A DNA stretch of 64,000 nucleotides from Desulforadius tongensis. GTDB taxonomy: Bacteria; Bacillota; Desulfotomaculia; Desulfotomaculales; Desulfohalotomaculaceae. The translations under genes were made by a program, and so were the position numbers. This document shows positions 21,111 to 37,159 of the stretch, one piece after another. Every line of letters begins with the position of its first letter. The first letter of the stretch is position 1. Location: positions 1-64,000 of the forward strand of contig NZ_JAFBCW010000003.1 of NCBI RefSeq assembly GCF_016907915.1. Reading direction: 5' to 3'. Under the pieces are notes generated by a model. It was not told the origin of the DNA. It saw nothing but the letters and a program-made list of their open reading frames with translations, and searched no databases.

Positions 21111-21125
21111 TAGCGTTTTTAATAA

Positions 21126-21153
21126 TCCCCTGCTTGTTACGGGGAATTTTTTT
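21126..21153 (+). terminator. Terminator after the chemoreceptor gene
   Basis: TCCCC/GGGGA stem with a 10-base loop and a run of seven T. Confidence 0.8.
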
Positions 21154-21342
21154 CTGCCCGCGAAGAATAAAAGGGATCTTTTAACGGAGTAAAGGTATTC
21201 AACCTAAAATTTTACATTTATGTGTGGTGAAAAAAGTATTGTCACTACTTGGCTGTAAAGGTATAATTATACTATAGGTATTTTAATTTTGATATCAATT
21301 AAAACTTACAGAAATTACAGTTTAGTAAAAATTTTATTTTTA

Positions 21343-21366
21343 CCAGGGTTTGTGATAATTAGCACA
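21343..21366 (+). promoter_or_regulatory. CRP/FNR- or Rex-like operator candidate
   Basis: TGTGA-N6-GCACA at 21351-21366 matches the CRP/FNR-family dyad with one mismatch. The 13-mer CCAGGGTTTGTGA (21343-21355) recurs in reverse complement at 33157-33169, before the second sensor kinase. The region between 21154 and 21611 otherwise holds only a doubtful small ORF and AAGCACC motifs. Confidence 0.4.
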
Positions 21367-21398
21367 TACTCCGGTTAATTTTTAAAGTTGAAGGAGTG

Positions 21399-21500
21399 AT
21401 GCGGAACTGTTTGGTTATAAAAATATTATTGTTGTTATTTAATCAAACTGCTGGTTTTAATTTTTCAGCTGCCAAGTTATTTTTATTAAGCACATTTTAG
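21399..21500 (+). CDS. Possible 33-aa hydrophobic peptide
   Basis: ATG preceded by GAAGGAG (only 2 bases away, too close for an ideal site) opens a 33-codon frame rich in Leu, Ile and Phe. Its stop codon falls inside the motif TAGCACCTG. It could be a small membrane or leader peptide, but there is no independent support. Confidence 0.2.
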   Translation: MRNCLVIKILLLLFNQTAGFNFSAAKLFLLSTF

Positions 21501-21565
21501 CACCTGTTAATATTATGTAAGAATCATTTAGGGATTGGTAAATTATATCTGTTTTAATTAACCCC

Positions 21566-21574
21566 AAGCACCTT
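21566..21574 (+). promoter_or_regulatory. AAGCACCTT motif, copy 1
   Basis: Exact 9-mer 37 bases before the sigma-region-4-like gene. Two degenerate copies (AAGCACATT at 21488, TAGCACCTG at 21498) lie upstream. Same motif and orientation as copies before TauE and SLC13 genes. Confidence 0.5.
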
Positions 21575-21611
21575 TAGTTTGATCTGTTTTTGGAAAAAGA
21601 GGTGACCAATT

Positions 21612-22067
21612 ATGACCAGGAAACAGCAAATAGAAAAAATAAAAAAACATTTAAAAAATTATAAAGTATATAAAGTGGGAATGAAGAACATACAGCAGTC
21701 ACTGGATGAAATTTTACCTAATATTACCACTGATTATTCGTGGAAAGAAAACTCTAAAGAGAGTTTAAATAATAATAGTTCAACGGAAAATACGGCCATA
21801 TATAGACTGGAAGGGGAAAAGGTTGCTTATTTGCAGCAGCAGCTGGCGATATATAAAACAATTATTAATTCCATTGATGAGGCGGTAAAAGCATTAACTG
21901 AGGACGAAGAAAAATTTATTAAATACAGGTATTTTGAAGGCTGGAGCATTGAAAAAACGGCATTGGAACTGGGATATAGTGTACAAAACTGTTTTAAAAT
22001 AAGAACCCAAGCGATGAACAAGTTGTTAATCAGTTTAAGAAATTTAATTAAATTCCCGCTGTCCTAA
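21612..22067 (+). CDS. Sigma-70 region 4-like helix-turn-helix protein
   Basis: 151 residues. The N-terminal half is helical and charged. The C-terminal part (about 95-145) reads LTEDEEKFIKYRYFEGWSIEKTALELGYSVQNCFKIRTQAMNKL-like (shown split here only as a description of positions 95-138), the pattern of sigma region 4 or of phage ArpU/DUF1492-type activators. No region 2 is present, so it is not a complete sigma factor. It probably binds DNA or RNA polymerase as an accessory regulator. RBS AGAGGTGA, ATG start. It is isolated, with a strong terminator behind it and AAGCACC motifs in front, so it could belong to the transporter regulon downstream. Confidence 0.7.
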   Translation: MTRKQQIEKIKKHLKNYKVYKVGMKNIQQSLDEILPNITTDYSWKENSKESLNNNSSTENTAIYRLEGEKVAYLQQQLAIYKTIINSIDEAVKALTEDEEKFIKYRYFEGWSIEKTALELGYSVQNCFKIRTQAMNKLLISLRNLIKFPLS

Positions 22068-22082
22068 TATTTAATAATCTAT

Positions 22083-22118
22083 CGTTCATTTTACTGGATA
22101 AAATGAACGATTTTTTTT
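22083..22118 (+). terminator. Terminator after the sigma-like gene
   Basis: Perfect 11-bp stem CGTTCATTTTA/TAAAATGAACG with a 5-base loop and eight T. Confidence 0.9.
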
Positions 22119-22190
22119 GGCAAATAAAAGAGGGTGTTCGAAAAATCCGCGCGAGATCCACTTCGAATTCGAACATTCAATAAAAATAAC

Positions 22191-22222
22191 TTTTAGTAGA
22201 TTTTTGGTAGATTTTTAGTAAA
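22191..22222 (+). repeat. Three 11-bp phased direct repeats
   Basis: TTTTAGTAGA, TTTTTGGTAGA and TTTTTAGTAAA follow one another at a period of about one helical turn. A palindrome TTCGAATTCGAA lies just upstream (near 22162). This may be a regulator binding array in the 510-base gap before the TauE operon. Confidence 0.5.
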
Positions 22223-22355
22223 CTTTAACATGTTTTTTTTTGATATAGAAAATGAAGTTTCCATGAAGTTTTAATAAATAATTAATGGATGTTTTTGAAT
22301 GAAAAATAAAGTAATATGGTATTGACAAGAAAATTATATAACTAACAAACTATAA

Positions 22356-22386
22356 TGCACTTTGTTTTTAAAAGTGCATTTTTATT
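22356..22386 (+). terminator. Terminator or attenuator upstream of the first TauE operon
   Basis: 8-bp stem TGCACTTT/AAAGTGCA with a 7-base loop and TTTTTATTT. It directly overlaps a TATAAT box at 22351. With no gene between 22119 and 22576, it may act as a leader attenuator or be a relic. Confidence 0.6.
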
Positions 22387-22525
22387 TATATTGCACTTGA
22401 TAGGTGTTGAAATATCAAAGAGGGCATTTTTTGTTAATAATTTTGCAAGGGGGTGATTAAGCTGGTAAGTATTTGTTTTTAAATTATTAATTGTACTGTT
22501 ATAACAACTAAATGAAAGATTATTT

Positions 22526-22534
22526 AAGCACCTT
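22526..22534 (+). promoter_or_regulatory. AAGCACCTT motif, copy 2
   Basis: Exact 9-mer 42 bases before the first TauE gene, on its coding strand. Confidence 0.55.
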
Positions 22535-22576
22535 ATTTATTAGAAAAGAAAACCTTTTCGTTGGGAGGAATTTACT

Positions 22577-23872
22577 ATGAGAAAGCTGTATGATGCTTTC
22601 ATGGAAGCTGCTGCTGCTCACGCCAAGTGGGATTATGAAGTTTCAATGAATATCCTGCACAATAGGAAAAAGCTCTTTTTATTGCTGCTTATGGCTTTGC
22701 CGGTAATACTGCCGGCGGTGGCCCATGCAGCATCCAGTTTACCGGCGGTTTTAGGCGGGAAAAGTGCTTACGCGCCTTCGTTCTTTTCACCTTTTGTCTT
22801 TTATGTATCAATTGCCATCGGCCTTTGTGCCGGTTTAATAACCGGCTGTATCGGTGCCGGCGGCGGCTTTATTATCACACCTGCTTTGATGAGTGCCGGT
22901 GTAAAAGGTATTCTGGCGGTGGGTACCGACCTGTTCCATATTTTTGCCAAGGCTATTATGGGTACTACCGTACACAAAAAGTTGGGTAATGTTCATGTTG
23001 GTTTGGCTATTGCATTCTTGGTTGGTTCCACTGCAGGTGTTACCTTTGGTGGTAAATTAAACAGGGCGTTATATAACGCTAACCCGGTGCTTAGCGATAC
23101 AGTAATCAGTATTGTTTATGTGGTTATGCTGGGCTTTTTAGGTACTTACGCGTTAATTGATTTCTTAAAGTCCCGTAAAAGAGCTGCTGCTTCCGGTGCT
23201 GTTCACGGCGGGGAAGATGAAGAATTAACTGTTTTGGCTAAAAGGCTGCAAAAGAGCAGCATTCCTCCGACCATCAAGTTCGACCAGCATATTGTTCCCG
23301 GTGGTAGAAAAATTTCCGCCTGGTTTGTGGCGGTGTGTGGTGCAGTTGTAGGTTTAACAGCAGCAATTATGGGAGTTGGCGGCGGCTTCTTAACCTTTCC
23401 CATGTTTGTATATGGTTTAGGAGTTTCAACGGCAACTACTGTGGGGACGGACATTTTGCAGATAATCTTTACGGCCGGTTATGCTTCTATTTCTCAATAT
23501 GCCCTTTATGGATATATTTTCTATACCCTGGCCATGGGGATGCTTATTGGTTCATTGATTGGTATTCAAATTGGAGCTATCACCACTAAGGTGGTTTCCG
23601 GTTCCCACATCAAGGGTTTTTATGCTGTAGCTATTTTAGCCGGCTTTTTCAATCGTTTAATGGCTCTGCCGGGAAAATTAAATAAAATGGAAGTAATATC
23701 CATCAGCAAAACTACGGCTAAAGTGCTCACGAACATTGGTAATATAACATTTTTTGCTATTGTAACCTTTTTCGCTGTATGGGTGATTAGTAAATTTGCG
23801 TCTAACTTTAAACAGTTGAGAAAAGAAGCTACGCTCACTGGTGTGATTGCTGGAGAAAAAGGGGTGAGCTAA
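22577..23872 (+). CDS. TauE/SafE-type anion permease with N-terminal extension
   Basis: 431 residues. A charged 33-residue N-terminus (MRKLYDAFMEAAAAHAKWDYE) precedes a first hydrophobic helix and about eight further membrane segments. Both TauE half-repeats carry glycine motifs (GCIGAGGGFIITPALM and GVGGGFLTFPMFVYGLG). A hydrophilic loop of about 60 residues joins the halves. TauE/SafE proteins export or import sulfite, sulfonates and related organic anions. In a sulfate reducer a sulfur oxyanion is the best guess. It heads the operon with an unknown membrane protein and a CBS protein, paralogous to the module at 30506-32658. RBS GGGAGG. Confidence 0.88.
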   Translation: MRKLYDAFMEAAAAHAKWDYEVSMNILHNRKKLFLLLLMALPVILPAVAHAASSLPAVLGGKSAYAPSFFSPFVFYVSIAIGLCAGLITGCIGAGGGFIITPALMSAGVKGILAVGTDLFHIFAKAIMGTTVHKKLGNVHVGLAIAFLVGSTAGVTFGGKLNRALYNANPVLSDTVISIVYVVMLGFLGTYALIDFLKSRKRAAASGAVHGGEDEELTVLAKRLQKSSIPPTIKFDQHIVPGGRKISAWFVAVCGAVVGLTAAIMGVGGGFLTFPMFVYGLGVSTATTVGTDILQIIFTAGYASISQYALYGYIFYTLAMGMLIGSLIGIQIGAITTKVVSGSHIKGFYAVAILAGFFNRLMALPGKLNKMEVISISKTTAKVLTNIGNITFFAIVTFFAVWVISKFASNFKQLRKEATLTGVIAGEKGVS

Positions 23873-23875
23873 ATA

Positions 23876-24565
23876 ATGATAATAAATAAAAAAGATTTTA
23901 ATATTGGCTTGATTATGCTGGTAATTTTTTTGGGGCTGTTTGTTTATATGTGGACCCCGGCCTTTGATGGAAAAAATGCCTTTCAGTTTTCAGACCAATT
24001 TTTTAACTCCATTGCCAAGGGATCCAGCTATCGTATTCCTGCCTTGTTGGCCAGTGCCGAAGATAAAATGGGAAAGGAGATTCAGGCAACTATCAGCGCC
24101 GATGATGCTGAATCAGCGCAAAAAGTAGCCATCCTTTATCAAAAAGCTGGTGCAGATGTGGTAATAAAGGGAGAAGAGATACAAATATCCGGTGATTTAG
24201 GGAAAATTACCACAGCAGCAATTTTAGATGCAGATGCCATGTATGATAACAACGGTAAATATTTAATTCAAAAATACGGCTTTGAGCCCAAAGAAATAAT
24301 GTATTACTGGTGGCATTCCTATGGTATGCTGCAGAATTCACTGCAAAAGGTGAAAGAATTTAAAGCAGCGGCATTTTTAAATGAAGTAACTAAAAAAGCT
24401 GTGGAACCCGGGTATAATTTTTACGGCATACAAAAAGCCAGTGCCGGTGATAATATGGCCTTGTTGTCGGGGCTGTTGGCGTTCTATGTATTCTATACGC
24501 TACTGTGGGGGTTTGCTATTTATTACTTGTGTAATGGTATAGGTATATTAATGAGTAAAAAGTAA
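23876..24565 (+). CDS. Two-TM membrane protein with extracytoplasmic domain, partner of TauE
   Basis: 229 residues, family unknown to me. One membrane helix near the N-terminus (14-32) and one near the C-terminus (200-222) enclose a domain of about 165 residues that should be outside the membrane. The domain contains a regular alpha/beta stretch (about 66-105, AEDKMGKEIQATISADDAES then VVIKGEEIQISG) and a YYWWHSYG segment. It starts 3 bases after TauE stops. The position matches that of the unrelated-looking 156-residue protein in the second module, so both may be accessory subunits. Confidence 0.7.
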   Translation: MIINKKDFNIGLIMLVIFLGLFVYMWTPAFDGKNAFQFSDQFFNSIAKGSSYRIPALLASAEDKMGKEIQATISADDAESAQKVAILYQKAGADVVIKGEEIQISGDLGKITTAAILDADAMYDNNGKYLIQKYGFEPKEIMYYWWHSYGMLQNSLQKVKEFKAAAFLNEVTKKAVEPGYNFYGIQKASAGDNMALLSGLLAFYVFYTLLWGFAIYYLCNGIGILMSKK

Positions 24566-24570
24566 AATAT

Positions 24571-24599
24571 AAGGTGGCCTTTATTTTAAAGGCCGCCTT
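24571..24599 (+). promoter_or_regulatory. Intercistronic hairpin of TauE-CBS module 1
   Basis: 13-bp stem (AAGGTGGCCTTTA with its complement, one G-T pair) and a 3-base loop, with no T run downstream. It lies between the membrane protein and the CBS gene. A hairpin with the same outer stem (AAGGCGACC/GGTCGCCTT) occupies the same place in the second module at 31143-31170. Likely an mRNA stability or partial-termination element. Confidence 0.6.
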
Positions 24600-24622
24600 A
24601 CCTCGCATGGGAGGGGTGCCCA

Positions 24623-25204
24623 ATGCCGGTACTGGCTGGAGATATTATGATGCCCGCAGACAACTGTACGGTTATTTATGAGGACGAAACCGTTCAAAGG
24701 GCCTTGTTAAAAATTCAATTTATGCTTTGTTCCGGTAAAGGAAAGTGTAGAGTGCTGTTAGTTTTAAATGCTGAGGATAAGCCTGTTGGCTGGGTGGCAT
24801 TGACGGATATTCTGGCAGTAATGGAACGCAGTATTAACAATAAAGGTTTTATGATGCTGTCTAATTTAACCGGGCCGTCTGCTTATATTGCCCGGCAGAT
24901 GATGAACTGGTTTCCCGATGATATATATAGATATGCTGAACACCGGCTGGAAAACAGTGTTGACATTAAAATGAAATCTTTAATGCGGTCTTGGCAGGTA
25001 GTATTTGTTTCACCGGATGCGGCACTGAGTACACTGGTGTCGGTGATGTCTAAAAACAGCCTAACTATACTGCCCGTGGTGAAAAATGAGCACCTTGTGG
25101 GCTTTGTTTTTGAAGAGGATATTGTTGTTGAACTTGCCAGGTTAGTATTAGGCTTTCACGGCAGAAAGGAAAAATTGCTGTTGTCGCCTGCTCATATTAC
25201 TTAG
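24623..25204 (+). CDS. CBS-domain pair protein (first copy)
   Basis: 193 residues with two CBS motifs (about 5-65 and 120-180) separated by a linker with the conserved LTGPSAYIARQMMNW. CBS pairs bind adenine nucleotides and regulate partner proteins, often transporters. It is clearly paralogous to the 202-residue protein at 30506-31114: both start with DIM-P and VIYEDET and share GPSAY-AR--MNW. As third gene of the TauE module it probably gates or senses energy state for the permease. RBS GGGAGGGG. Confidence 0.85.
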   Translation: MPVLAGDIMMPADNCTVIYEDETVQRALLKIQFMLCSGKGKCRVLLVLNAEDKPVGWVALTDILAVMERSINNKGFMMLSNLTGPSAYIARQMMNWFPDDIYRYAEHRLENSVDIKMKSLMRSWQVVFVSPDAALSTLVSVMSKNSLTILPVVKNEHLVGFVFEEDIVVELARLVLGFHGRKEKLLLSPAHIT

Positions 25205-25228
25205 CAGTAAGTAAATTTAAAAACGGAA

Positions 25229-25269
25229 AAAGACAGGTTGTTAAAGTAAATTTAAAACAACCTGTCTTT
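25229..25269. terminator. Bidirectional terminator between the CBS gene and the ArsB/NhaD gene
   Basis: Perfect 14-bp stem AAAGACAGGTTGTT/AACAACCTGTCTTT with a 13-base loop between convergent genes. Confidence 0.85.
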
Positions 25270-25289
25270 CATTAGTTTTTGCTGTTGAA

Positions 25290-26573
25290 TTATGTCCAGT
25301 AGAAGAAGTACAGGTAAACGGTACACATCACAATAGATAAGATCATCAAGGGAAAGGCTATTTTCATATAACCTAAAAATGATATCCTGGTTCCGTTTTT
25401 GTCTGCCAAGCCGGCTACAATGACGTTAGCAGCGGCTCCAATAATGGTGCCGTTACCGCCAAGGCAGGCTCCCAGGGCCAGTGACCACCAGATGGGATCC
25501 AGGTTGGTAAAAACGTTTAAGCCTTCGGGCCCCATTTCTTTAATCATGGGAATCATTGTGGCCACAAAGGGGATGTTATCAACAAATGATGAAGCTATTG
25601 CAGCCAACCATAATACTAAGAACCCGGTTTTTAGCAGATCCCCGCCGGTTAATTCAATGGCTTTTGCAGCTATAGCGGCAATTACACCGTTTACTTCCAG
25701 GGCCCCTACAATGGCAAATAGTCCAATAAAGAAGAAAATGGTAGGCCATTCCACAGTGAGCAGCACTTCTTCCGGTTCTTCACGGGTAATAAGCAGCAGT
25801 AAAGTGGCACCGGTTAAAGCAATAATAGAGTTTTCAATGTGCAGTGCACCGTGGAACCCAAAACCGATGATGGTAATGGCCAGTACAAATAGAGATTTTT
25901 TCATCAAAGCGATGTCTTTTAACTCCTGCTTTTCGTCAAACTGCATAATTTTTTCTTTTAATTCTTCAGAGGCCTCAATGCGGAAGACAAAACGCAAAAT
26001 AAAAATAGTGACAATAAATACTAAAATAGCGATGGGGGCTAAGTTATAGATAAATTCCATAAAAGACAGCCCAGCCGGACCGCTGATCATAATATTGGGC
26101 GGGTCACCGATCAGGGTGGCGGTACCACCGATGTTAGAAGCCATTATTTCGGTGATTAAAAAAGGAATGGGATTAACATTTAACTCCCTGGTGATAGAAA
26201 AAGTCACAGGCACTACCAGCAGCACGGTGGTAACGTTATCCAAAAAGGCTGAACCCACGGCAGTGATAATTGCCAGTGTCACCAGAATACGCATTGGTTC
26301 GCCCTTGGCCCTTTTAGCCGCCCAGATGGCTAGGTATTCAAATACACCGGAGCGCCTGGTAATACCCACTATGATCATCATACCTACTAAAAGGCCGATG
26401 GTGTTCCAGTCGATGTGATGGATTGCCTCCTCAAAGTGAATAACACCGGCAAAAAGTACTAACATGGCTCCTGCAAGTGCTACCACTGCCCGGTGAATTT
26501 TTTCTGACATGATTAAAGCGTACGTTAGCAGAAAAACAATGATAGCATATAAGGAGTGATATTGTTCTGGCAT
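25290..26573 (-). CDS. ArsB/NhaD/SLC13-superfamily ion transporter
   Basis: About 427 residues with 11-12 hydrophobic segments. Ion-transporter superfamily hallmarks are a DNVTTVLLVVPVTFSI segment, the MASNIGGTATLIGDPPN motif (about residues 140-160) and, in the second half, SFVDNIPFVATMIP and GACLGGNGTIIGAAANV. Such proteins are Na+/H+ antiporters (NhaD) or arsenite/organic anion pumps; closely similar ones are often annotated ArsB-like. The substrate is not decided by sequence. Start set at 26573 by GAGGAGGTAACC upstream. It follows the SLC13 gene by 125 bases and probably shares its transcript. Confidence 0.85.
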   Translation of the reverse strand: MPEQYHSLYAIIVFLLTYALIMSEKIHRAVVALAGAMLVLFAGVIHFEEAIHHIDWNTIGLLVGMMIIVGITRRSGVFEYLAIWAAKRAKGEPMRILVTLAIITAVGSAFLDNVTTVLLVVPVTFSITRELNVNPIPFLITEIMASNIGGTATLIGDPPNIMISGPAGLSFMEFIYNLAPIAILVFIVTIFILRFVFRIEASEELKEKIMQFDEKQELKDIALMKKSLFVLAITIIGFGFHGALHIENSIIALTGATLLLLITREEPEEVLLTVEWPTIFFFIGLFAIVGALEVNGVIAAIAAKAIELTGGDLLKTGFLVLWLAAIASSFVDNIPFVATMIPMIKEMGPEGLNVFTNLDPIWWSLALGACLGGNGTIIGAAANVIVAGLADKNGTRISFLGYMKIAFPLMILSIVMCTVYLYFFYWT

Positions 26574-26698
26574 AACGGTTACCTCCTCAAAAAAATACCC
26601 GCAGCGATTTATGAAAGGCAACGGGTTCTTGATAAGTATTTTATCAATTAACACCAGTAATTATAATTTGTTTTTTAAATAATTTAGAAGCTCGGTGT

Positions 26699-28153
26699 TT
26701 ACCAAATGCCCAGTACTTTCCACCAGAAACCTACCAGACCGAATACTACAAAGAAAAGAGAGAGCAGGAACATTACAGACCCGGCCTTGAGATAGTCTGA
26801 TGCTTTAAGAAAACCGGGGCCATATACAATGGCGTTGGCTGGCGTTCCAATAATTAACAAGTAGGCAAAGGCTGATCCCAGGGATGTAGCAACACCGATG
26901 GCAAAGGGGGAGGTCTCTGCCAGCTCGGCAACTTTTAAGAAGATCGGCCCCAGCACTGCAACGGTTGGACCATCTGCCATGGTATTGGTGGTAAAGGCAG
27001 TAATTGTTGTGATAGCGGCCACCAGGGGTAAACCATCTGTTATACCTAGAGCACTTACCCCTGCCAGTAGATTTTCTGCCAGCCATAGTGCTGCCCCGGT
27101 TGACTGCAGCATAGAACCCATGGAAATGGCACCGGCGTAAAGAATTACCACACCCCACTGGGTGTTTTTCTGCAGATAGTTCCAATCTACCAATCCCAGT
27201 ATCATAGCTGCAATGGCCCCCATGACAGCGATGTTGCCGAGACCGATATGTTCACTCATTGTAATCCATAAAGTTAGAACCACTATAAAAATACCCAGGG
27301 CCATTTTAGCTTCGGTGGACATTTTGCCTTCAGTGGCCATTTCTTTTTTAATTGCTTCCACCGGCTCCCGCAAATCCGTTACTTCTGGTTTAAAACAGCG
27401 AGTCAACCAAAGTACCGTCAGCGGTATCATAATCAAAGTAAAGGGTATGGCCATTAAGACCCATTGACCGTAGCTAATAGAGATATCGTACTGGGAAAGA
27501 AAACCGATCATCAAAGCGTTGCGGGCTCCACCGGAGGGGGAAGCCAGGCCGCCGATGATACAACCATAAGCAATGGCGAGCATCAATAATTTACCTAGAT
27601 TGGGTACTTTTTTAATACCACCACAGAGGGATACAATACCTACACCAATGGGCAGCATAATAGTGGCGGTTGCGTGCTCGGAAATAAATCCGGCACTAAA
27701 GGCACAGAAGGTGATAATACCCAGCATAACCCTAGTAACATTGGTTCCCGATATGTTTAAAATAAACAGCGCAATACGGTTGTGTATTTTATACTTTACC
27801 AGGATTGAACCGATCATCAGTGCGCCCATGATGAAAGCAACTGCGTCGCCCATAAAGGTTTTGGGAACTTCTCTGAAGGGTGTTAAACCCATTATTACTT
27901 GGTACGAGCCAATTATCAGGGCTACAGCCGGCAGGGGAATTGCTTCTGTAAAGAAACACACCACCACAAAAATCATCAGGGCCAGTGCTCTTTGTCCTGC
28001 GGTTGTTAGTCCTTCAGGAGTTGGCATTAATACTACCAGGGTTGCCAGTAATGCAGCCAGTAAGAAAAACTTCCGGTTTTTTATAAAGCTACTTAAAAAA
28101 CTTTGTTGGCTTTGGGCCTGTTTAGATTCAGAAATGGCAATATTATTTTCCAT
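26699..28153 (-). CDS. DASS/SLC13 family anion:Na+ symporter
   Basis: About 484 residues with 11-12 hydrophobic segments. The two family signature regions are GLASPSGGARNALMIGF and IGTPANAIVYGPG near the C-terminus. SLC13/DASS members carry dicarboxylates or sulfate with Na+. The SGGARN and TPANA motifs correspond to the SNT/SNA substrate motifs. Sulfate is attractive in a sulfate reducer, but a C4-dicarboxylate is equally possible. Start set at the ATG at 28153 because GGGGGT lies upstream; an ATG at 28174 has no such site. Two AAGCACCTT motifs precede it. Confidence 0.87.
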   Translation of the reverse strand: MENNIAISESKQAQSQQSFLSSFIKNRKFFLLAALLATLVVLMPTPEGLTTAGQRALALMIFVVVCFFTEAIPLPAVALIIGSYQVIMGLTPFREVPKTFMGDAVAFIMGALMIGSILVKYKIHNRIALFILNISGTNVTRVMLGIITFCAFSAGFISEHATATIMLPIGVGIVSLCGGIKKVPNLGKLLMLAIAYGCIIGGLASPSGGARNALMIGFLSQYDISISYGQWVLMAIPFTLIMIPLTVLWLTRCFKPEVTDLREPVEAIKKEMATEGKMSTEAKMALGIFIVVLTLWITMSEHIGLGNIAVMGAIAAMILGLVDWNYLQKNTQWGVVILYAGAISMGSMLQSTGAALWLAENLLAGVSALGITDGLPLVAAITTITAFTTNTMADGPTVAVLGPIFLKVAELAETSPFAIGVATSLGSAFAYLLIIGTPANAIVYGPGFLKASDYLKAGSVMFLLSLFFVVFGLVGFWWKVLGIW

Positions 28154-28200
28154 AATCAACTTACCCCCAAACATACGGAATAAATTTACGGAATAAATTA

Positions 28201-28209
28201 AAGGTGCTT
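28201..28209 (-). promoter_or_regulatory. AAGCACCTT motif, copy 3
   Basis: Exact 9-mer on the minus strand, 47 bases before the SLC13 gene start. Confidence 0.55.
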
Positions 28210-28371
28210 TAGAGTTATCTTAGTCAGTCATTTAATTGTAAAAAATTTAATTGTAAAAAATTTTAAACCATAAGGGATTTTTGGTAAGCATCTCCTCCTT
28301 CCCCCCCAGGTAAAAGACTGCTTGATGTAATTTTCACAATCCCCATTACCAAAAAAACCTGGTTTATTATT

Positions 28372-28380
28372 AAGGTGCTT
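28372..28380 (-). promoter_or_regulatory. AAGCACCTT motif, copy 4, next to a TATAAT box
   Basis: Exact 9-mer on the minus strand, one base downstream of TATAAT (28382-28387 region). If that is the -10 box, the motif would span the transcription start. It lies about 220 bases upstream of the SLC13 gene. Confidence 0.5.
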
Positions 28381-28456
28381 CATTATACCAAGTTATTGCT
28401 AATTTTGGTTATGCTTATTATACATGCATAGCTGTGCGGTGACAACACTTTTGTCA

Positions 28457-29449
28457 TCATGTAGTGGTTTTTTTATCGGTACAGGCTATTTCATCCTTGA
28501 CCAGTTCTTCTTCGCTAACTATTTTTCTTACCATTTTTTCCAGCAGCATATAATTAATAACTATAACGGTGGGAGTTAATAAAGCGGCTATTATTAACAG
28601 TTTGGCAAATTTTATATAACCAAACATAAGTACTGCAATGGCCAAAATAGTTTTCATTGCGGACATCAGTAATAAAAAATCTTTTGTTTTACTGGATACC
28701 TTATCCGGTGGAATATAGTTTAAGGCTGCATAACCGATGTAAGAACCGACAATTACACCCACCAGCAGTATGGTGGTAGTTAATACACCCAGTAACCCTG
28801 CTGAGGACCAGAGTTTGATACCCGTTGCTGAGGTTACTAAAAATGCGGCTAAATTGCTGGCTAAAATAACGGTATTCGGCAGGTTAGAAAAGTAAATTAA
28901 AAATGGAATTTGCAGCAGAAGAATTCCGCTGCCCAGAAAGCTGGCCAAAAAACCGGAAAATATGCCAAATAAAACCGGTATTAATGCGGATGGATTAAAT
29001 AGCGGGGTTAAATGAATGCTGAATTTTGGCAGCAATGGTAAACGATTATTGTTCTTTAGTATTAATATAATGGCCAGTATTACTAATAAAGCAATATACA
29101 GGAACCTTACAACGGTATCGGTGATGTGATAATGTTCCGTAAGCAGTATCAACTTATGGCCGGCAGCTAAACCCATAATGCCGGAAAGGCTTAAGATAGC
29201 GGTCAAATGCCAGTTGACAACTTTAAATAGCTTGTAATGGTAGCTGTCAATTATTGTCCTGGTGCAGGCGTGAGCCATATCTGTGCCGATGGCAAATACC
29301 ATTGGTATACTGTTAATATTTAAAGCCGGAATGGCAAGAAACATGGCTTTAGAACCAAAATATGCTCCCATGACGCCAATACAAAAGCCAATTAATAAAA
29401 TTACGTAAGGATTTACAAAAATACTGGCACTTTCATAGTTTAATAACAT
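28457..29449 (-). CDS. TauE/SafE-type permease, second copy
   Basis: 330 residues with about eight hydrophobic segments. The two half-repeats carry GAYFGSKAMFLAIPAL and GFLASFLGSGILLLQIPFLIYF in place of the usual GxGGG motifs. It is more diverged than the other two TauE proteins in the window. The C-terminus is charged and cytoplasmic in appearance (SEEELVKDEIACTDKK). Substrate unknown, presumably a sulfur-containing or organic anion. RBS AGGGG and ATG. It lacks an obvious AAGCACCTT motif and sits alone between the WYL-regulator operon and the SLC13 operon. Confidence 0.8.
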   Translation of the reverse strand: MLLNYESASIFVNPYVILLIGFCIGVMGAYFGSKAMFLAIPALNINSIPMVFAIGTDMAHACTRTIIDSYHYKLFKVVNWHLTAILSLSGIMGLAAGHKLILLTEHYHITDTVVRFLYIALLVILAIILILKNNNRLPLLPKFSIHLTPLFNPSALIPVLFGIFSGFLASFLGSGILLLQIPFLIYFSNLPNTVILASNLAAFLVTSATGIKLWSSAGLLGVLTTTILLVGVIVGSYIGYAALNYIPPDKVSSKTKDFLLLMSAMKTILAIAVLMFGYIKFAKLLIIAALLTPTVIVINYMLLEKMVRKIVSEEELVKDEIACTDKKTTT

Positions 29450-29632
29450 AAATGTCAGCCCCTTTTTTATTGCCCGGGCGATGAAAATTAATTTGTCACT
29501 ACTTTAAATTAAGACAGGTTAATTGTACAGTTGTATATAAAGTTATTACATACAAATATTTGGCACTTATGCCGGTAATCTTTTTAATATACTGTGTTTT
29601 TCTCAGTTACGAAATTTTTTTGTCAGTGTTCG

Positions 29633-29667
29633 AAAATAAAAAAATAATGACCGCTGCGGCCATTATT
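29633..29667 (-). terminator. Terminator of TauE-CBS module 2
   Basis: AATAATG/CATTATT stem with an inner CCGC/GCGG stem, followed on the minus strand by seven T. It ends the operon 32658 to 29691. Confidence 0.8.
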
Positions 29668-29690
29668 TTGGAATTATAAACTTTTAATTT

Positions 29691-30500
29691 TTAGGAAGAT
29701 GCTTTTTGTGACAAGTACTTGCTTTGGTGGGTTTTTAATACATTGTTACAAAAATCAATTAGCTTTTTGCGGATTCTTATTGGCTCAATGATTTCTGCTT
29801 CACCGTTCCAGTGGAACAACCAGGACAAAATTTCGTTATCACAGGAGGCTCTTAAAGTAAGCAATAAAGAGCCGTCGGGTAAAGGTTCCTGGGAGATGGT
29901 TTTAAAATGCTCGGGAGTGTTTCTGTAAATTTCTGCTGCCTTAGGACTCAAAATTACCTTTACTGCTTCTTTTTTGCTTTTGGGTTGATTATTTTTGTTA
30001 GCAGTGGGAAGATAAAAAACTGTTCCGGTCTGCTCTTTTGCAGACGGTTGTTTACTATCATTCAACTCGTTGACCGGTGATTGGTGGATTTCAGACATTT
30101 TCCATTCTTTGGGTAGGCTTAGGTGGTATTTAGCTGCTAAATATCTAATGAAGATTTCATATAATGCCATCAATAAATTACGGTATTGTGCTTCTTTTTG
30201 GGCGTTTAATCCCATTAACATGATTAAGCTGGCATCTGTATCCGATTCAAGCATTGTTTTCTCACTGAGGTAATATTTTCCCCTGCCGGGTGTACCGGGT
30301 TTTTGCTGCACCGGTCTGATTATTTCAATTCCCATGTATTCCAGTTCGTTTAAATAGCGATAAATGTTTCTTTTACTTACACCGCATAGACTGGATAACT
30401 CTTCCAGAGTAACCCCACCGTCAGGTGTTGATTCCCTTAATTTATTAAGAATTAAATCAAGGTTTGCTGCGTGATTGTGTTTTGTTTTAGCTCTACCCAT
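29691..30500 (-). CDS. HTH-WYL type transcriptional regulator
   Basis: 269 residues. An N-terminal winged HTH (about 15-70) contains TLEELSSLCGVSKRNIYRYLNELE-type helices (residues 31-54). A poorly conserved middle with a polar linker (about 150-180) follows. The C-terminal region (185-262) has the VKVILSPKAAEIYR ... LLLTLRASCDNEILSWLFHWNGEAEI pattern of WYL/WCX ligand-sensing modules. Such regulators respond to small ligands or nucleic acids. It is the last gene of TauE module 2, 5 bases after the CBS gene, so it may regulate its own operon and the AAGCACCTT-marked genes. RBS GAGGTG. Confidence 0.8.
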   Translation of the reverse strand: MGRAKTKHNHAANLDLILNKLRESTPDGGVTLEELSSLCGVSKRNIYRYLNELEYMGIEIIRPVQQKPGTPGRGKYYLSEKTMLESDTDASLIMLMGLNAQKEAQYRNLLMALYEIFIRYLAAKYHLSLPKEWKMSEIHQSPVNELNDSKQPSAKEQTGTVFYLPTANKNNQPKSKKEAVKVILSPKAAEIYRNTPEHFKTISQEPLPDGSLLLTLRASCDNEILSWLFHWNGEAEIIEPIRIRKKLIDFCNNVLKTHQSKYLSQKASS

Positions 30501-30505
30501 ATATT

Positions 30506-31114
30506 TTACACCTCGCTGAATTTCGCCGCCGGTGTGGATTGGTTTTTCTTGTTTACAGTGGTATTAATTAGAATTGAAGCCATTTCCATAATAATATCTT
30601 CTGCTCGTACAAAGCCTACCAGTTTTCCGTTTTCAACCACCGGTAAAGTAGAGAGATTTTTTTCGTACATTATAGATGCCACCGCATTTAACGGTGTTTC
30701 AGCATGAACAGCACCTGATTCAAGCGGCCTAACCAATTTATCTACCCTGAGGTTGGAAATTTTTTGACACTGATCCGCTAAGGAGTTTAAGGTATCATTT
30801 GATACCCAATTCATTAACTCGCGGGCGAAATATGCAGATGGGCCGGTTAGTCCCTGTAAATTCCATTTATGCTTGTTTGTATAATCTAAATTGGAAGGAT
30901 GCACTGCTGCCAAAATATCTCTCAGGGTTACCCAACCAATTGGCTCATCATTTCTATTTAAAACTAACAGGTTCCGCCTTTTTGACTGTTTAGAACATAG
31001 GGAAAACTGAAATTTAGACAAAACCCTTTTAATTGTTTCATCTTCGTAAATAACAGGATAACGATCTGAAGGAACCATAATATCTTTAGCAACTTTTTTG
31101 TCAGATGACGACAT
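30506..31114 (-). CDS. CBS-domain pair protein (second copy)
   Basis: 202 residues, with two CBS motifs (about 8-70 and 128-190) and the linker LTGPSAYFARELMNWV. Paralogous to the protein at 24623-25204, with a longer charged N- and C-terminus. It probably binds an adenine nucleotide and modulates the TauE permease of its operon. RBS GGAGGAGG. A 10-bp intercistronic hairpin precedes it, and the WYL-type regulator gene follows by 5 bases. Confidence 0.85.
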   Translation of the reverse strand: MSSSDKKVAKDIMVPSDRYPVIYEDETIKRVLSKFQFSLCSKQSKRRNLLVLNRNDEPIGWVTLRDILAAVHPSNLDYTNKHKWNLQGLTGPSAYFARELMNWVSNDTLNSLADQCQKISNLRVDKLVRPLESGAVHAETPLNAVASIMYEKNLSTLPVVENGKLVGFVRAEDIIMEMASILINTTVNKKNQSTPAAKFSEV

Positions 31115-31142
31115 AGATACCTCCTCCCTTTGAATGGAACTT

Positions 31143-31170
31143 AAGGCGACCTATTTTTACAGGTCGCCTT
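31143..31170 (-). promoter_or_regulatory. Intercistronic hairpin of TauE-CBS module 2
   Basis: Perfect 10-bp stem AAGGCGACCT/AGGTCGCCTT with an 8-base loop, no T run. Its position and outer stem match the hairpin at 24571-24599. Confidence 0.6.
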
Positions 31171-31201
31171 GAATCTTCCAGTTTGACAAATTAAAGAGTG
31201 C

Positions 31202-31672
31202 TTAATGGCCGCCGGATCCCAATATGCCGGAGGCAGCTAAAACAAGTACAATTATCTCAACTGCAACAATTGTTAGGAATGGGGTATCTTTTTGTTTAAG
31301 ATAAGCCGGTACTAAAAATGCCAAGTAGGCTATAATTGTCAGCCCTGCCAGCCAGGCAATACCTAACAGGCTGAGGAAATTACCGTACCGCAGCATTCCC
31401 AACCATTCCCAACCGTGCGGCATACCATTTGTTTTTAAGAATTCCTCACAGCTTAAATGCCAAGTTTGAGCTACTTCGCTGGGGGGAACGAAACCCGGCA
31501 TCATTCCGCTCATATAAATAAAGAATGTGATAACCAGTATGCCTACTCCCAGCCACTGTCCGTAATTAATCATATTTGCATATGCAACCTGCTCTGCCGG
31601 AACATGCATTTTGGACTGCACTTTTCCCGAACTCTTTGGCGCCTGTTGAGCTGCCAGTTGTTCTTTAGCCAT
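31202..31672 (-). CDS. Small three-TM membrane protein, partner of TauE
   Basis: 156 residues. A 35-residue polar N-terminus (Gln/Lys/Ala rich) precedes three hydrophobic helices (about 38-58, 95-118, 130-150). A loop between the first two contains two short conserved-looking stretches (WHLSCEEFLKTNG and HGWEWLGMLRYGNF). I do not recognise the family. It is the second gene of module 2, 38 bases after the TauE stop, the place taken by the 229-residue protein in module 1. RBS AGGAGG. Confidence 0.75.
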   Translation of the reverse strand: MAKEQLAAQQAPKSSGKVQSKMHVPAEQVAYANMINYGQWLGVGILVITFFIYMSGMMPGFVPPSEVAQTWHLSCEEFLKTNGMPHGWEWLGMLRYGNFLSLLGIAWLAGLTIIAYLAFLVPAYLKQKDTPFLTIVAVEIIVLVLAASGILGSGGH

Positions 31673-31710
31673 AATTTCTACCTCCTAAAGTCACCTAAAA
31701 TTAATTTACA

Positions 31711-32658
31711 CTACATTACGCCTAAGCCTTTCAGGAAGGAGTTGATACCTGCAAATAACAGCATTGCAATGACCAGGTATCTTACAGCTTTAGGTTTAGA
31801 CTTGGATAACAGTTTAACACCAACCTGAGAACCAAGCATAATACCCAGCACTGATGGAACAGCAATAATAGGTAATACCGCACCTTTATTTAAGTAAATC
31901 CATGCAGCAGATGTATCTGTAATGGAGAGTAGAAACTTACTGGAACCTACGGCTAATTTCAGTGGTGCGCCCATTAACAGGTTTAATACCGGTACGTTTG
32001 CCCAACCGGCACCAAGTCCGAACATCCCGGCAATTAAACCGATGAAAATAAAGGTTAAATACCCTTTAAGAGTACGGTGTACTGTCCAATCAATTTGTCT
32101 ACCTGTGGATTCTTCAATGTAAGTACCGGAAATTTTAAGTTTTTTGGATAAACCGTCAGGACCCGGTACATTTGGAATATCACTGTTTTTAGAGAATATA
32201 AACAAAACGGCGATGGCACAGATGGTTGCCCCTAAAGCCATTTGCAAAATATTTTGAGGCAGTGCAAGCCCGATAAATGCCCCGATAATACTAAAAGTCG
32301 ATGCAATTAACGCTACGGGCAGTGCCAATCTTAAATTAGCCAGCCCCTTTTTAAGCAGTCCCGGACCGGCAGCCAATGCTCCTGCCAGTGCTACAATCAA
32401 GCCGGCGCCCCGGACAAAATCCAGGTGGAAAGGAAAGAAACTACCTACAATGGGTACAAACAGTACCCCGCCACCAACGCCTGCCAATACCGCTACAATA
32501 CCTAATACAAATGTGGTTACAAACAGCACTGCCGGCCATACCCACCAGGGAGTATCTGGATTTCCCGCTGCAGCGGAAACAGCATTAGCAGCGTCGGGCA
32601 TAGCCGATGATACAGCCACTGTAAAGGCATTAAATTTTTCAATTAATGTGTTCATCAT
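31711..32658 (-). CDS. TauE/SafE-type permease, third copy
   Basis: 315 residues. A polar N-terminus (about 30 residues) is followed by eight hydrophobic segments. Half-repeat motifs are GVGGGVLFVPIVGSFFP (about 60-77) and MFGLGAGWANVPVLNLLMG (about 213-231), typical of the family. It is the first gene of module 2: TauE, small membrane protein, hairpin, CBS protein, WYL regulator. RBS GGGGGAAG before a double ATG (32658 or 32655). Two AAGCACC motifs precede it. Likely substrate a sulfur oxyanion or sulfonate, by family and host physiology. Confidence 0.88.
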   Translation of the reverse strand: MMNTLIEKFNAFTVAVSSAMPDAANAVSAAAGNPDTPWWVWPAVLFVTTFVLGIVAVLAGVGGGVLFVPIVGSFFPFHLDFVRGAGLIVALAGALAAGPGLLKKGLANLRLALPVALIASTFSIIGAFIGLALPQNILQMALGATICAIAVLFIFSKNSDIPNVPGPDGLSKKLKISGTYIEESTGRQIDWTVHRTLKGYLTFIFIGLIAGMFGLGAGWANVPVLNLLMGAPLKLAVGSSKFLLSITDTSAAWIYLNKGAVLPIIAVPSVLGIMLGSQVGVKLLSKSKPKAVRYLVIAMLLFAGINSFLKGLGVM

Positions 32659-33299
32659 TCTACTTCCCCCGTAGAAAAAATTTTTTATTCCTAGATGTCT
32701 TTACCAAGGTGCTTTTTCTAAAGGATTTTTTAAAAGTATTGAATTTTAACTGTAACGGTTGACTTTGCTCAATTAACCAACTATTTGAAATTGTAAGGTG
32801 CTAGCGGGATTAATGTTCACCCCCTTTTAAAAAATTTAAATTTAAATTGTTAAGTTTTTACAGCGCTTTTTTGCTTAAAAGCGGCTAAAATTGTATGTTA
32901 TAATTAATACAATGTTTTTTAATACTGTTTTGACGGCTTCGTACACTTGTTATTATTTTCTCAAACCTTTTAAAACCAATCAGCGGCATTTTTATACATT
33001 TTTATAACTTTGTAAACTTTACTATGCAATTCTCATGCCAAAAGTATGAAAGCGGGAAAAGATTGATTTTAAGGGATTTATTGAAATAAAAACGACAATA
33101 ATTTTAACGAGGTGTACGAAAACAATCAATTAACTATATTGATTATGTAGTTATTTTCACAAACCCTGGAAGTCAGGGGCTGTAAACAAAGGGGTTTGGT
33201 GATGCGGTAAGGGGTTGAAGGTTGTTGTTTGATATTGAACAATAATGTGTTTGATAACATACAATATATTTGATGTTTGGATGGAAAGGTGGGACTATT
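32659..33299. promoter_or_regulatory. Divergent intergenic region with operator candidates
   Basis: 640 bases between TauE module 2 and the second kinase operon. It holds AAGCACCTT (32706-32714, minus), a variant TAGCACCTT (32795-32803, minus), a CGCTTTT/AAAAGCG hairpin near 32863-32883, and the 13-mer TCACAAACCCTGG (33157-33169) shared with 21343-21355. No gene and no convincing -24/-12 promoter were seen. Confidence 0.45.
32706..32714 (-). promoter_or_regulatory. AAGCACCTT motif, copy 5
   Basis: Exact 9-mer on the minus strand, 47 bases before the third TauE gene. A variant copy lies at 32795-32803. Confidence 0.55.
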
Positions 33300-34826
33300 A
33301 TGAAAAAATTTTTTTCACACCGTAATTTTGGTTTTCAAATGATTACCATTACTTTGATAATTTTGGTTATACCGATACTGGTATTGTTGTATGAATCCTT
33401 TGCCAGTAAAAAAGAAGAGATAATTTTTCTTTCTAAGGAAGAGCGTCTGGGAACAATCGTACAGACTGTTTTATTGGAAGTTAATGCTGAAATAAATGAG
33501 AATAAAGAAAAAATTAAACAAATGACCATTGAAGAAAGGAACAATTTTTTTGAGCAAATCTTTTCCCACGCCGCCACCCCGATTATTGAGTTTAACCCCG
33601 GGGTAAGATTAAGCTTGTATATTCCGGACAGTGATAAAATGATAGTTAGAGGTTTTCTGCATAACTATCGTAAGTTGTCCCCAGAGGAGCAAAAAAAGAG
33701 AGAAAAGAGAATCTACACCAATGCGTATTCAGGGATTCGTAGTGTGCTGGCCAGCGGTGAACCGCTGGCTACCATTGCCGGCGAGCCGGAGGACAGGTTT
33801 ATTGAACGGTTTGTACCCGTTAAAATAGAAGGGCAGTTAGTTGCTGTGTTGTGGGCGGATGAACGTCTGCATCCAATTTTTAATCAAGCCAGGCAGTTTA
33901 GAACTATGACCAGGTATCTTTCAATTGCTGCCCTGCTGATTGGCGGGTTAGGGGTATTTATTGTTGTAAACAATTTGACCAGTGGGGTAAGACAAATAAA
34001 AAATGGCTTAAGTAAATTAGAGAATGATATTAACGCCAAACTGCCTGTACTACCGGGGGAATTGGGACAAATTTCAAAAGCCATTAACAAAATGGCTGAT
34101 GCCTTAATTGAAAAAGAAAAATTAGAAGAGGAAATAAGGAAGCAAGAGCGTTTAGCGGCCCTTGGCCGGATTGTAACCGGGGTTGCCCACGAGCTGCGCA
34201 ATCCCATTGGGGTAATTAAAGCAACTGTTCAATTAATGGAAGCAGAAAAAAAAGATCCTTCTATTCAAGAATACTGTCAGGTAATAAAACAGCAGGTGGA
34301 CAGACAGAACAAAGTAATTCATGAACTGCTGTCTTATGGAAAACCCAGTAAGCCGGTAAAAGAGATGGTGCAGATCAATAAACTGCTGGATTCTGTACTT
34401 ACTTTTTTTATTGCTGCCCAGCTTAGACAAAGCAATATAGAACTTGTAACAAACTTTTCCCCGGAACTGCCGCCGGTATATGCAGATGGGGAACGCATTA
34501 AACAAGTATTTGTAAATATAATTTTAAATGCCATAGAAGTAATGCCCGGTGGAGGCAAACTTGATATTACAACTCGACATGATGCAAATAATGTTATAAT
34601 ATCCTTTAAAGACACTGGAACAGGTATAGACAAAGAAAAAATTAAAAATATTTTTGACCCCTTTTTTACTACCAAAGAAACAGGAACCGGTTTAGGGTTG
34701 ACGATATGCAATCAAATAATATCTATGCATAATGGTGTTATTACGGCTGAATGTAATGAAGATGGGGGAATGACTTTTACTGTCAAACTGCCGTTAAACC
34801 AAGAGATGGGGAGAGATGACAGGTGA
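33300..34826 (+). CDS. Membrane sensor histidine kinase
   Basis: 508 residues. A first membrane helix (about 10-30) is followed by an extracytoplasmic sensor domain (about 35-205) and a second helix (about 207-227). Then come a HAMP-like region (230-280), HisKA with His near 297 (HELRNPIGVI) and HATPase_c with NIILNAIE, DTGTGID and GTGLGLT. ATG start at 33300, preceded by AAAGGTGGG; an in-frame ATG at 33270 is less likely. It overlaps the downstream NtrC-type regulator gene, its obvious partner. The extracellular signal may be an anion handled by the adjacent transporters. Confidence 0.9.
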   Translation: MKKFFSHRNFGFQMITITLIILVIPILVLLYESFASKKEEIIFLSKEERLGTIVQTVLLEVNAEINENKEKIKQMTIEERNNFFEQIFSHAATPIIEFNPGVRLSLYIPDSDKMIVRGFLHNYRKLSPEEQKKREKRIYTNAYSGIRSVLASGEPLATIAGEPEDRFIERFVPVKIEGQLVAVLWADERLHPIFNQARQFRTMTRYLSIAALLIGGLGVFIVVNNLTSGVRQIKNGLSKLENDINAKLPVLPGELGQISKAINKMADALIEKEKLEEEIRKQERLAALGRIVTGVAHELRNPIGVIKATVQLMEAEKKDPSIQEYCQVIKQQVDRQNKVIHELLSYGKPSKPVKEMVQINKLLDSVLTFFIAAQLRQSNIELVTNFSPELPPVYADGERIKQVFVNIILNAIEVMPGGGKLDITTRHDANNVIISFKDTGTGIDKEKIKNIFDPFFTTKETGTGLGLTICNQIISMHNGVITAECNEDGGMTFTVKLPLNQEMGRDDR

Positions 34827-36187
34827 TCCCTAAAATATTAATCATTGACGATGAGGAACACATGTGTTGGGCTTTAAAACGGGCAATGGAACAGGAAGGC
34901 TACCAGGCCATAACGGCAACCTCCGGTAATAAAGGGATTAGTCTTTTAAAAAATAAAGGCCCGTCATTGGTTTTGCTGGATTTAAAAATGCCGGGAATGG
35001 ATGGTATGGAAGTTTTAAAGGTTATAAAAGAAATTCATCCCAAGATCCCGGTAATTATGATTACAGCCCACGGCACCATAGAAACCGCCATTGAAGCAAT
35101 GAAACTGGGTGCCAATGATTACATTACCAAACCATTTGATTTAGATGAGCTGAAAATGGTGGTTAAACAAGCGCTGAAATACAGCGAACTTGTTTCTGAA
35201 GTTTCATTTTTGCGCTCGGAACTGAGTAAAAAATACGGGACTATTATCGGGGAAAGCCCGGCCATTAAAGAAGTTATTCTGTTGATTGAGCGGGTGGCGG
35301 CAACCAACGCCACTGTAATGATAACCGGCGAAAGCGGTACCGGTAAAGAGGTTACTGCCTTGGCAATACACCAGGCCAGCGATAGAAGGGACTACCCCTT
35401 TGTACCGGTTAACTGTGCGGCCCTGCCGGAACAATTGCTGGAAAGTGAGCTGTTTGGGCATGAAAAAGGTGCTTTTACCGGTGCTGTGGCGTTAAAACGG
35501 GGACGTTTTGAACTGGCGGACAAAGGAACCATCTTTTTGGACGAGATCGCAGAAATGTCCCCGGCCATGCAGGCCAAACTGCTGAGAGTTTTACAGGAAA
35601 GGTCTTTTGAACGGGTGGGCGGCACGGAAACGCTGCATGTTAATGTAAGGATTATTGCGGCCACCAACAGGGATATTCGTGAACTTATTCGAAAAGGGGA
35701 ATTTCGAGAAGACCTGTATTATAGATTAAATGTTATTCATATTCACCTGCCCCCCTTAAGAGAGCGCAGGGATGACATTCCGCTGCTGGCTAATAATTTT
35801 TTAAGAAAATACATGATGGGAACTTACCCGGTAAAGGATATTGACCCGGAAGCTATGGAACTGCTGGTAAATTATGATTGGCCGGGCAATATACGCGAAC
35901 TGCAGAACGTTATTGAACGTGCGGTTATAATATGCCGGGGAAACAAAATTTTACCTGAGCACTTACCCATAGAATTACAGCAAAAGGCTGATAATAATCA
36001 GTTTGCTGTGGAAACGATAGTAAATTTCCCGGACAGCGGTATTTCATTGGAGCAGGTGGAAAAAGAGTTGATATTAAAGGCCTTGGAGAAAAGTAAAGGT
36101 AATCAAACCAAAGCTGCCCAGTTACTGGGCATTACCCGGTCTGCTTTAATTTATCGCAGCCAAAAGTATAACATAAAATTAGGATAA
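34823..36187 (+). CDS. Sigma-54 dependent response regulator (NtrC type, second copy)
   Basis: 454 residues. Receiver domain with phospho-acceptor D53; AAA+ domain with Walker A GESGTGKE (169-176), GAFTGA (216-221) and a GWPGNIRELQNV-type end (DWPGNIREL); C-terminal Fis-type HTH (SKGNQTKAAQLLGITRSAL). GTG start overlapping the kinase stop (GTGA). It activates sigma-54 promoters, but I found no good -24/-12 site before the neighbouring transporter genes, so its targets may lie elsewhere. Compared with the regulator encoded at 11700, it lacks the linker insert. Confidence 0.92.
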   Translation: MIPKILIIDDEEHMCWALKRAMEQEGYQAITATSGNKGISLLKNKGPSLVLLDLKMPGMDGMEVLKVIKEIHPKIPVIMITAHGTIETAIEAMKLGANDYITKPFDLDELKMVVKQALKYSELVSEVSFLRSELSKKYGTIIGESPAIKEVILLIERVAATNATVMITGESGTGKEVTALAIHQASDRRDYPFVPVNCAALPEQLLESELFGHEKGAFTGAVALKRGRFELADKGTIFLDEIAEMSPAMQAKLLRVLQERSFERVGGTETLHVNVRIIAATNRDIRELIRKGEFREDLYYRLNVIHIHLPPLRERRDDIPLLANNFLRKYMMGTYPVKDIDPEAMELLVNYDWPGNIRELQNVIERAVIICRGNKILPEHLPIELQQKADNNQFAVETIVNFPDSGISLEQVEKELILKALEKSKGNQTKAAQLLGITRSALIYRSQKYNIKLG

Positions 36188-36247: not shown

Positions 36248-37159
36248 TTGACCAAAGAGTTTCAACCTGCTTACCGTAAAATGTCTATTACCGAGCTTAA
36301 GCGCCGTACCAGGCTGGCGGTGGAAAAATTAGCAGATTGTACAGTGTGTGCCCAGCATTGTCATGTTAATCGTTTAGAAGGTCAGTTGGGTTTTTGCCGC
36401 GCAGGGCGTGAAGCGGTTGTGGCCAGTTATGGAAGTCATTGGGGAGAAGAGGAAGTGCTGGTGGGCCAAAACGGTTCGGGTACAATATTTTTCAGTTACT
36501 GCAGCATGTCCTGTGAGTTTTGTCAAAACTGTGAAATCAGCTATCACGGGGAAGGACGTGATGTAACCGCCAGTGAACTGGCTGATATAATGCTGAGCTT
36601 GCAGCAAACGGGGTGCCATAATATCAATTTGGTTTCCCCCAGTCACTTTGTTCCCCAGATATTAGAAGCACTGGTGCTGGCGGTGGAAGAGGGGTTAAAT
36701 TTACCGCTGGTATACAATACCGGGTGTTATGATGATCTGGAGACGATAAAATTGCTTGATGGAATAGTAGACATATATATGCCGGATATTAAATTTTCCG
36801 ATGACCAAAACGGTAAAAAATATGCTTCGGCGCCCCGGTATTTTACTGTGGCCAGAGAAGTGGTTAAAGAAATGTACCGGCAGGTAGGGGATTTACAGAA
36901 GGACGATAGAAATATCGCCCGGCGTGGTTTGCTGGTGCGGCACCTGGTAATGCCGGAAGATTTAGCCGGCAGTGAGCAGGTGGTGCAGTTTTTAGCCAAT
37001 GAAATTTCGCCCGATACCTACCTGCATATTATGAAGCAGTATTATCCTGCCCATAGAGCCGGTAAGTACCCGGAGTTAAACCGGCCGGTGTACAATCGCG
37101 AGCACAGGTGGGCAGTAAAGAAGGCTAAAGAGGCGGGGCTGCGCCGAATTTTAAGTTAA
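36248..37159 (+). CDS. PflX-like radical SAM protein (COG1313 type)
   Basis: 303 residues. An N-terminal cysteine cluster (C31-x2-C34-x3-C38 and C50: CTVCAQHCHV, LGFC) precedes the radical SAM motif C85-x3-C89-x2-C92 (CSMSCEFC). This double arrangement fits the uncharacterised PflX/COG1313 family, related to pyruvate formate-lyase activases. The target protein or substrate is unknown. TTG start with AGGTGGTGGG upstream. Monocistronic; it may read through from the regulator gene 60 bases before. Confidence 0.85.
   Translation: MTKEFQPAYRKMSITELKRRTRLAVEKLADCTVCAQHCHVNRLEGQLGFCRAGREAVVASYGSHWGEEEVLVGQNGSGTIFFSYCSMSCEFCQNCEISYHGEGRDVTASELADIMLSLQQTGCHNINLVSPSHFVPQILEALVLAVEEGLNLPLVYNTGCYDDLETIKLLDGIVDIYMPDIKFSDDQNGKKYASAPRYFTVAREVVKEMYRQVGDLQKDDRNIARRGLLVRHLVMPEDLAGSEQVVQFLANEISPDTYLHIMKQYYPAHRAGKYPELNRPVYNREHRWAVKKAKEAGLRRILS

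Follow-up and report, generated by a model that had tools for sequence, protein, structure and literature searches.

Why does one nine-base sequence, AAGCACCTT, stand time after time on the coding strand just ahead of neighbouring anion-transporter genes of Desulforadius tongensis? The locus lies in a window of 64,000 nucleotides (contig NZ_JAFBCW010000003.1, positions 1 to 64,000), which is the whole stretch of DNA analysed here. The question reaches further than one genome, as the control of sulfur-anion uptake in sulfate reducers and their relatives is poorly known. PMC5840216 reports that TSUP proteins abound in sulfate reducers; the available passages of that paper quote the molecular regulation of high-affinity sulfate uptake and describe no cis-regulatory element, and its text nowhere uses the word 'promoter'. 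The motif was likewise not found reported in the literature that we searched. Our answer, which we hold to be probable, is that AAGCACCTT is a linear element of leader mRNA through which a trans-acting factor co-regulates TauE and SLC13 anion transporters, and that this element is restricted to one family and undescribed.

The cluster opens with a gene for a 151-aa protein with a C-terminal sigma-70 region-4-like domain (21612..22067, +; PF08281, E 6.6e-6), followed by the transporter TauE 1 (22577..23872, +; PF01925). On the opposite strand lie an SLC13/DASS anion symporter (26699..28153, -; PF00939), whose start codon was picked by its conservation in the relative G002, and TauE 2 (31711..32658, -; PF01925), which leads an operon that also encodes a small membrane protein, a CBS protein and a WCX/HTH regulator. 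Divergent from this operon are genes for a histidine kinase and an NtrC-type sigma-54 response regulator (33270..36187, +). The role of the transporters in moving sulfur anions is putative.

Five exact copies of AAGCACCTT lie within this cluster, all of them intergenic and in the sense direction relative to the next gene, with coordinates and strands precisely as the sequence-only reading had given them. The first base of the copy at 21566..21574 (+) is 46 nt ahead of the ATG of the sigma-region-4-like gene, and the copy at 22526..22534 (+) is 51 nt ahead of TauE 1 and is kept in G003 and G004. The SLC13 leader has two copies, a proximal one at 28201..28209 (-), 56 nt ahead of the start at 28153 and kept in G002 and G004, and a distal one at 28372..28380 (-). 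The fifth copy, at 32706..32714 (-), is 56 nt ahead of TauE 2 and is kept in G001 and G002. Counted from the end of the motif, the gap to the start codon is 37 nt for the sigma-region-4-like gene, 42 for TauE 1, 47 for TauE 2 and, for SLC13, 47 with the start at 28153 or 26 with an upstream ATG at 28174; the spacing of 37-47 bases that had been claimed is correct given the start at 28153, which is the one conserved in G002. Two near copies had also been proposed. The one at 32795..32803 (-) is real (TAGCACCTT, 89 nt away from the proximal copy of the TauE 2 leader), and so is the one at 21498..21506 (+), TAGCACCTG, with two mismatches; 10 nt before it, in the same leader of the sigma-region-4-like gene, AAGCACATT at 21488..21496 (+) is the better match. 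The consensus of the motif is WAGCAC[C/A]TT. A further exact copy that had escaped the earlier list, at 35466 (-), is antisense within the ntrC-like gene (34823-36187).

Genome-wide, the exact 9-mer occurs 33 times (14 on the plus and 19 on the minus strand of 2.58 Mb in 61 contigs), and the copies outside the cluster are mostly intragenic. At the genome's own rate, the 11.3-kb cluster interval is expected to hold 0.145 copies and holds five (Poisson P ~5e-7). When one mismatch is allowed over the whole window, the 25 matches are not above the 20.9 due to chance, so that the signal resides in the exact copies in leaders. When a Shine-Dalgarno (SD) sequence and an ATG were required after the motif, the genome gave six distinct sites: four in the cluster, one within a coding region at 60550, and one ahead of a TauE operon on another contig (C44). 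This operon is not linked to the cluster; the copy lies 52 nt ahead of a gene for a 76-residue putative small membrane protein, which is followed by the TauE gene. As at TauE 2, the C44 operon faces away from a histidine-kinase-like gene, and a good sigma-54 site is predicted for it. The motif is present at three of the six TauE genes of this genome and absent from the other three. The genome-wide scan, put forward by the sequence-only reading as the way to refute it, did not do so, and well-placed copies are nearly exclusive to the transporter set.

The same arrangement recurs in relatives. Orthologues were chosen by protein similarity and their leaders were read afterwards, so that the motif played no part in the choice; the exceptions are the C44 leader and, at first sight, TauE 2 of G001, which were first found via the motif. 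We take G001 to be Desulfotomaculum sp. GB_MAG20_002 and G002 to be Bacillota MES5, both identities being inferred. In orthologous leaders of four relatives, the proximal motif lies 38-56 nt ahead of the start codon while its flanks have diverged. It is found 45 nt (G003) and 50 nt (G004) ahead of TauE 1, and 44 nt ahead of the SLC13 gene of G002, whose protein is 87% identical; the same G002 leader contains a distal AAGCACTTT in the region corresponding to the 28372 copy. A more distant SLC13-family gene of G004 has two exact copies in its leader, and the SLC13 gene next to it has TTGCACCTT only. The region-4 gene leader of G004 has one exact and three one-mismatch copies, and the AAGCACATT variant occurs twice ahead of this orthologue. 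TauE 2 of G001 and of G002 each has two copies of AGCACCTT, 90 and 88 nt apart, at a distance of 89 nt in this genome (G000). An alignment of these three TauE 2 leaders has a mean identity of 69%, and its longest invariant blocks are an upstream SD-like block, AAGGGGGTGA (32817..32826, - in the window, invariant in the three congeners), both motif copies, and the SD block GGGGGAAGT. As a separate observation, of 22 TauE 2 leaders from the order, 18 have an SD-like block (at least 8 of 10 positions of AAGGRGGTGA) 45-220 nt ahead of the start, against 5.4 in shuffled sequences; these blocks may possibly represent a leader peptide or a ribosome standby site.

Taken over the last 260 nt of 16 leaders, AGCACCTT is present in 12 (shuffles: mean 0.08, maximum 1), including seven of the 11 leaders from genomes other than this one. 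With up to one mismatch, the 16 leaders contain 23 sense copies and no antisense copy; the fixed orientation and spacing first read from a single locus are borne out and extend to relatives. G003 and G004 lack the motif ahead of TauE 2, and loci from other families of the order (GTDB) have no motif at comparable positions of their TauE 1, TauE 2 or SLC13 leaders. The motif-bearing gene set is small and, among the loci sampled, limited to a single GTDB family. Further motif-plus-SD matches in the genomes of the family are mostly intragenic. Those that are not precede a gene of 341 aa in G003, a G005 gene whose protein start resembles an NAD(P)-disulfide oxidoreductase and a desulfoferrodoxin-like gene in G006, or lie at a few places where no gene start is clear; all of these exceptions are probably due to chance. 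Paired copies on C1 and C18 of G003 were rejected, as they lie within coding sequence such as murG.

If the element acts as RNA, one candidate reader is a conserved trans-acting small RNA with a AAGGUGCU-type seed, for which the motif would be the antisense target. A linear element of 8-9 nt is what such pairing would call for, and two of the variants (CACTTT and GCGCC) are wobble-compatible. The recurrent AAGCACATT variant, on the other hand, would mispair, and a search for the motif complement followed by a T-run (8-nt seed pattern) gave no convincing conserved candidate. We give the small RNA a tentative, minor share of the probability of our best explanation. Since AAGCACATT recurs and the motif comes in multiple copies, we infer that an RNA-binding protein is a likelier reader of the leader element than a small RNA.

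The region-4-like protein of the cluster was considered for this part and is disfavoured: among the genomes of the family it is found only in G000 and G004, and a search at E 1e-3 did not detect it in the motif-bearing G001, G002 and G003. It is, on these grounds, probably not a general reader of the motif. G004 has two region-4-like genes in tandem (L088 6245-7490). Near-tandem repeats of ~11 bp (TTAGTAGATTTTTGGTAGATTTTTAGTAAAC) lie upstream of TauE 1 at 22193-22225 (+), and an array resembling them occurs twice before the second G004 region-4 gene (L088 about 6700-6960).

Whether the copies work in RNA or in DNA can be approached through their position relative to promoters. Two predicted classes serve the motif-bearing genes. 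A sigma-54 promoter (TGGCAY-type -24/-12) is predicted for TauE 2 in G000, G001, G002 and G004 and for C44; in the window it is TGGCATGAGAATTGCA at 33025..33040 (-). Promoters of the form TTGTCA-N17/18-TATAAT are predicted for SLC13 (N17, 28417..28445, -; the type is shared by G002 and one SLC13 copy of G004), for the sigma-region-4-like gene (N17, 21239..21267, +; the same type, with N18, in G004) and for TauE 1 of G003. No promoter was found for TauE 1 of G000, TauE 1 of G004 or SLC13a of G004. The motif lies downstream of every predicted promoter found, by roughly 30-400 nt: both TauE 2 copies are >200 nt beyond the predicted sigma-54 site, and the C44 copy is ~75 nt beyond its own. Under either class, the proximal copy keeps its 38-56 nt from the start codon, and inspection of the leaders reveals no other conserved hexamer at the distance expected of a promoter partner. 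The position downstream of both predicted promoter classes and the missing partner hexamer together favour an element of the leader RNA.

The opposing view, a directional DNA element such as a site for a transcription factor (the WCX/HTH regulator, for example) or an unusual gene-near part of a promoter, is in our judgement unlikely and a little less probable than the small RNA. It would account for a directional 9-base motif in multiple copies, two of which lie 10 bp apart ahead of the region-4 gene, and the WCX/HTH regulator is found in G000, G002, G003 and G004. G001 has the motif but no clear counterpart of this regulator, and most distances between copies are without helical phasing. As a promoter part the motif fares no better, given its place downstream of both classes and the lack of a partner hexamer; in G001 the start codon is only 38 nt away, and a -10 element would overlap the SD. 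An inverted repeat, TGACAAAANNATTGTCA, that lies at the -35 is moreover the better operator candidate. Of the two possibilities that the sequence-only reading had left side by side, the 5'-leader RNA signal is thus favoured and the directional promoter disfavoured. Its view that the motif is not a dyad operator stands, as the motif is non-palindromic and its copies run 23 to none in the sense direction.

The TGACAAAANNATTGTCA repeat overlaps the -35 of the TTGTCA-N17-TATAAT promoters and is kept in G002, G003 and G004. It is located at 21228-21244 (+) and 28440-28456 (-) in the window and at L088 13119-13135 (-), L089 7063-7079 and L123 8232-8248 in the relatives; it is imperfect ahead of the region-4 gene and has one imperfect position ahead of SLC13. 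This dyad is likely a transcriptional operator, read perhaps by the WCX/HTH regulator encoded at 29691-30500. The window has sigma-54-type promoter matches at three places, 33025-33040 (-), 7469-7484 (+) and 36603-36618 (-), where 0.2 would be expected.

Returning to the leader-RNA element, folding of 13 leaders gave no common fold; the accessibility of the motif varies between leaders, and its copies are not consistently unpaired. Leaders have one to four copies (up to one mismatch), several of them a single copy. Rfam models gave no gathering-level match in 21100-33400, and a relaxed threshold gave one 16-bit chance match. Elsewhere in the window lie a yjdF (azaaromatic) riboswitch (42429-42553, +; 65 bits) and four CRISPR-DR2 type direct repeats (56999-57227, +).

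These folds also bear on a cis-acting switch in which CACCUU would pair with the SD of its own gene or with an upstream AAGGGGGUGA block. CACCU does complement AGGUG, and such pairing is predicted in the SLC13 leader of G002 and in the region-4 leader of this genome. Across 12 leaders, however, the motif pairs with the SD no more strongly than its shuffled versions do (mean z 0.12), and the recurrent CACATT variant would lose this pairing. We consider the switch quite improbable. We regard as slightly more improbable still that the motif spells codons of a short leader peptide. Some upstream frames do read it as Ser-Thr-Leu/Phe or Lys-His-Leu, and the GTG of AAGGGGGTGA shares its reading frame with the distal copy of three TauE 2 leaders, yet the frame varies among leaders, and inspection found several with a stop right before the motif or without a start codon. 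That the 9-mer merely clustered by chance, as the chance-level count of one-mismatch matches in the window might suggest, is next to impossible in view of the cluster P of ~5e-7, the 23:0 orientation and the retention of the motif ahead of orthologous genes in four other genomes.

We therefore return to the linear leader element as the preferred reading and describe how it may work. The motif would sit in the untranslated mRNA leaders of TauE-type and SLC13 transporters and of the sigma-region-4-like gene, with its proximal copy just upstream of the region that a starting ribosome would cover. A sequence-specific trans factor may bind the copies and tune the translation or the mRNA stability of the transporters jointly. 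This control would be added to a separate transcriptional layer, in which sigma-54 with NtrC and the TTGTCA-dyad promoters presumably take part. We lean, by a narrow measure, towards the broader proposal that a new RNA-binding protein or small RNA reads WAGCAC[C/A]UU and sets sulfate/sulfonate transport in a Desulfotomaculum-like lineage, which would constitute an undescribed post-transcriptional regulon. Because it is short, conserved and common to the leaders of several transporters, the signal offers a way to find the regulator and to recognise co-regulated transporters by sequence alone.

Several known systems help to place the motif. CsrA/RsmA and TRAP are RNA-binding proteins whose target sites are short and lie only in the sense direction; a leader often contains several of them in the vicinity of the ribosome-binding site, and a small regulon has them in common. 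CsrA recognises GGA, and TRAP recognises GAG/UAG repeats. The motif resembles their sites in being short, in the sense direction and shared by a small set of genes, and differs in its letters, in that no hairpin presents it, and in that no homologue of these proteins is tied to it. With riboswitches and other Rfam leader elements it shares the position in leaders ahead of transporter genes, whereas the motif cluster has neither an Rfam match nor a common secondary structure. Multi-target small-RNA regulons are similar in having a common short leader site in functionally related mRNAs; here, the T-run-anchored seed search did not identify a small RNA with a complementary seed. The genes that the motif would control are themselves members of the DASS/SLC13 and TSUP (TauE, CysZ-like) sulfate-transporter families of sulfate reducers. 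Set beside these systems, the motif is an undescribed cis element that is familiar in kind.
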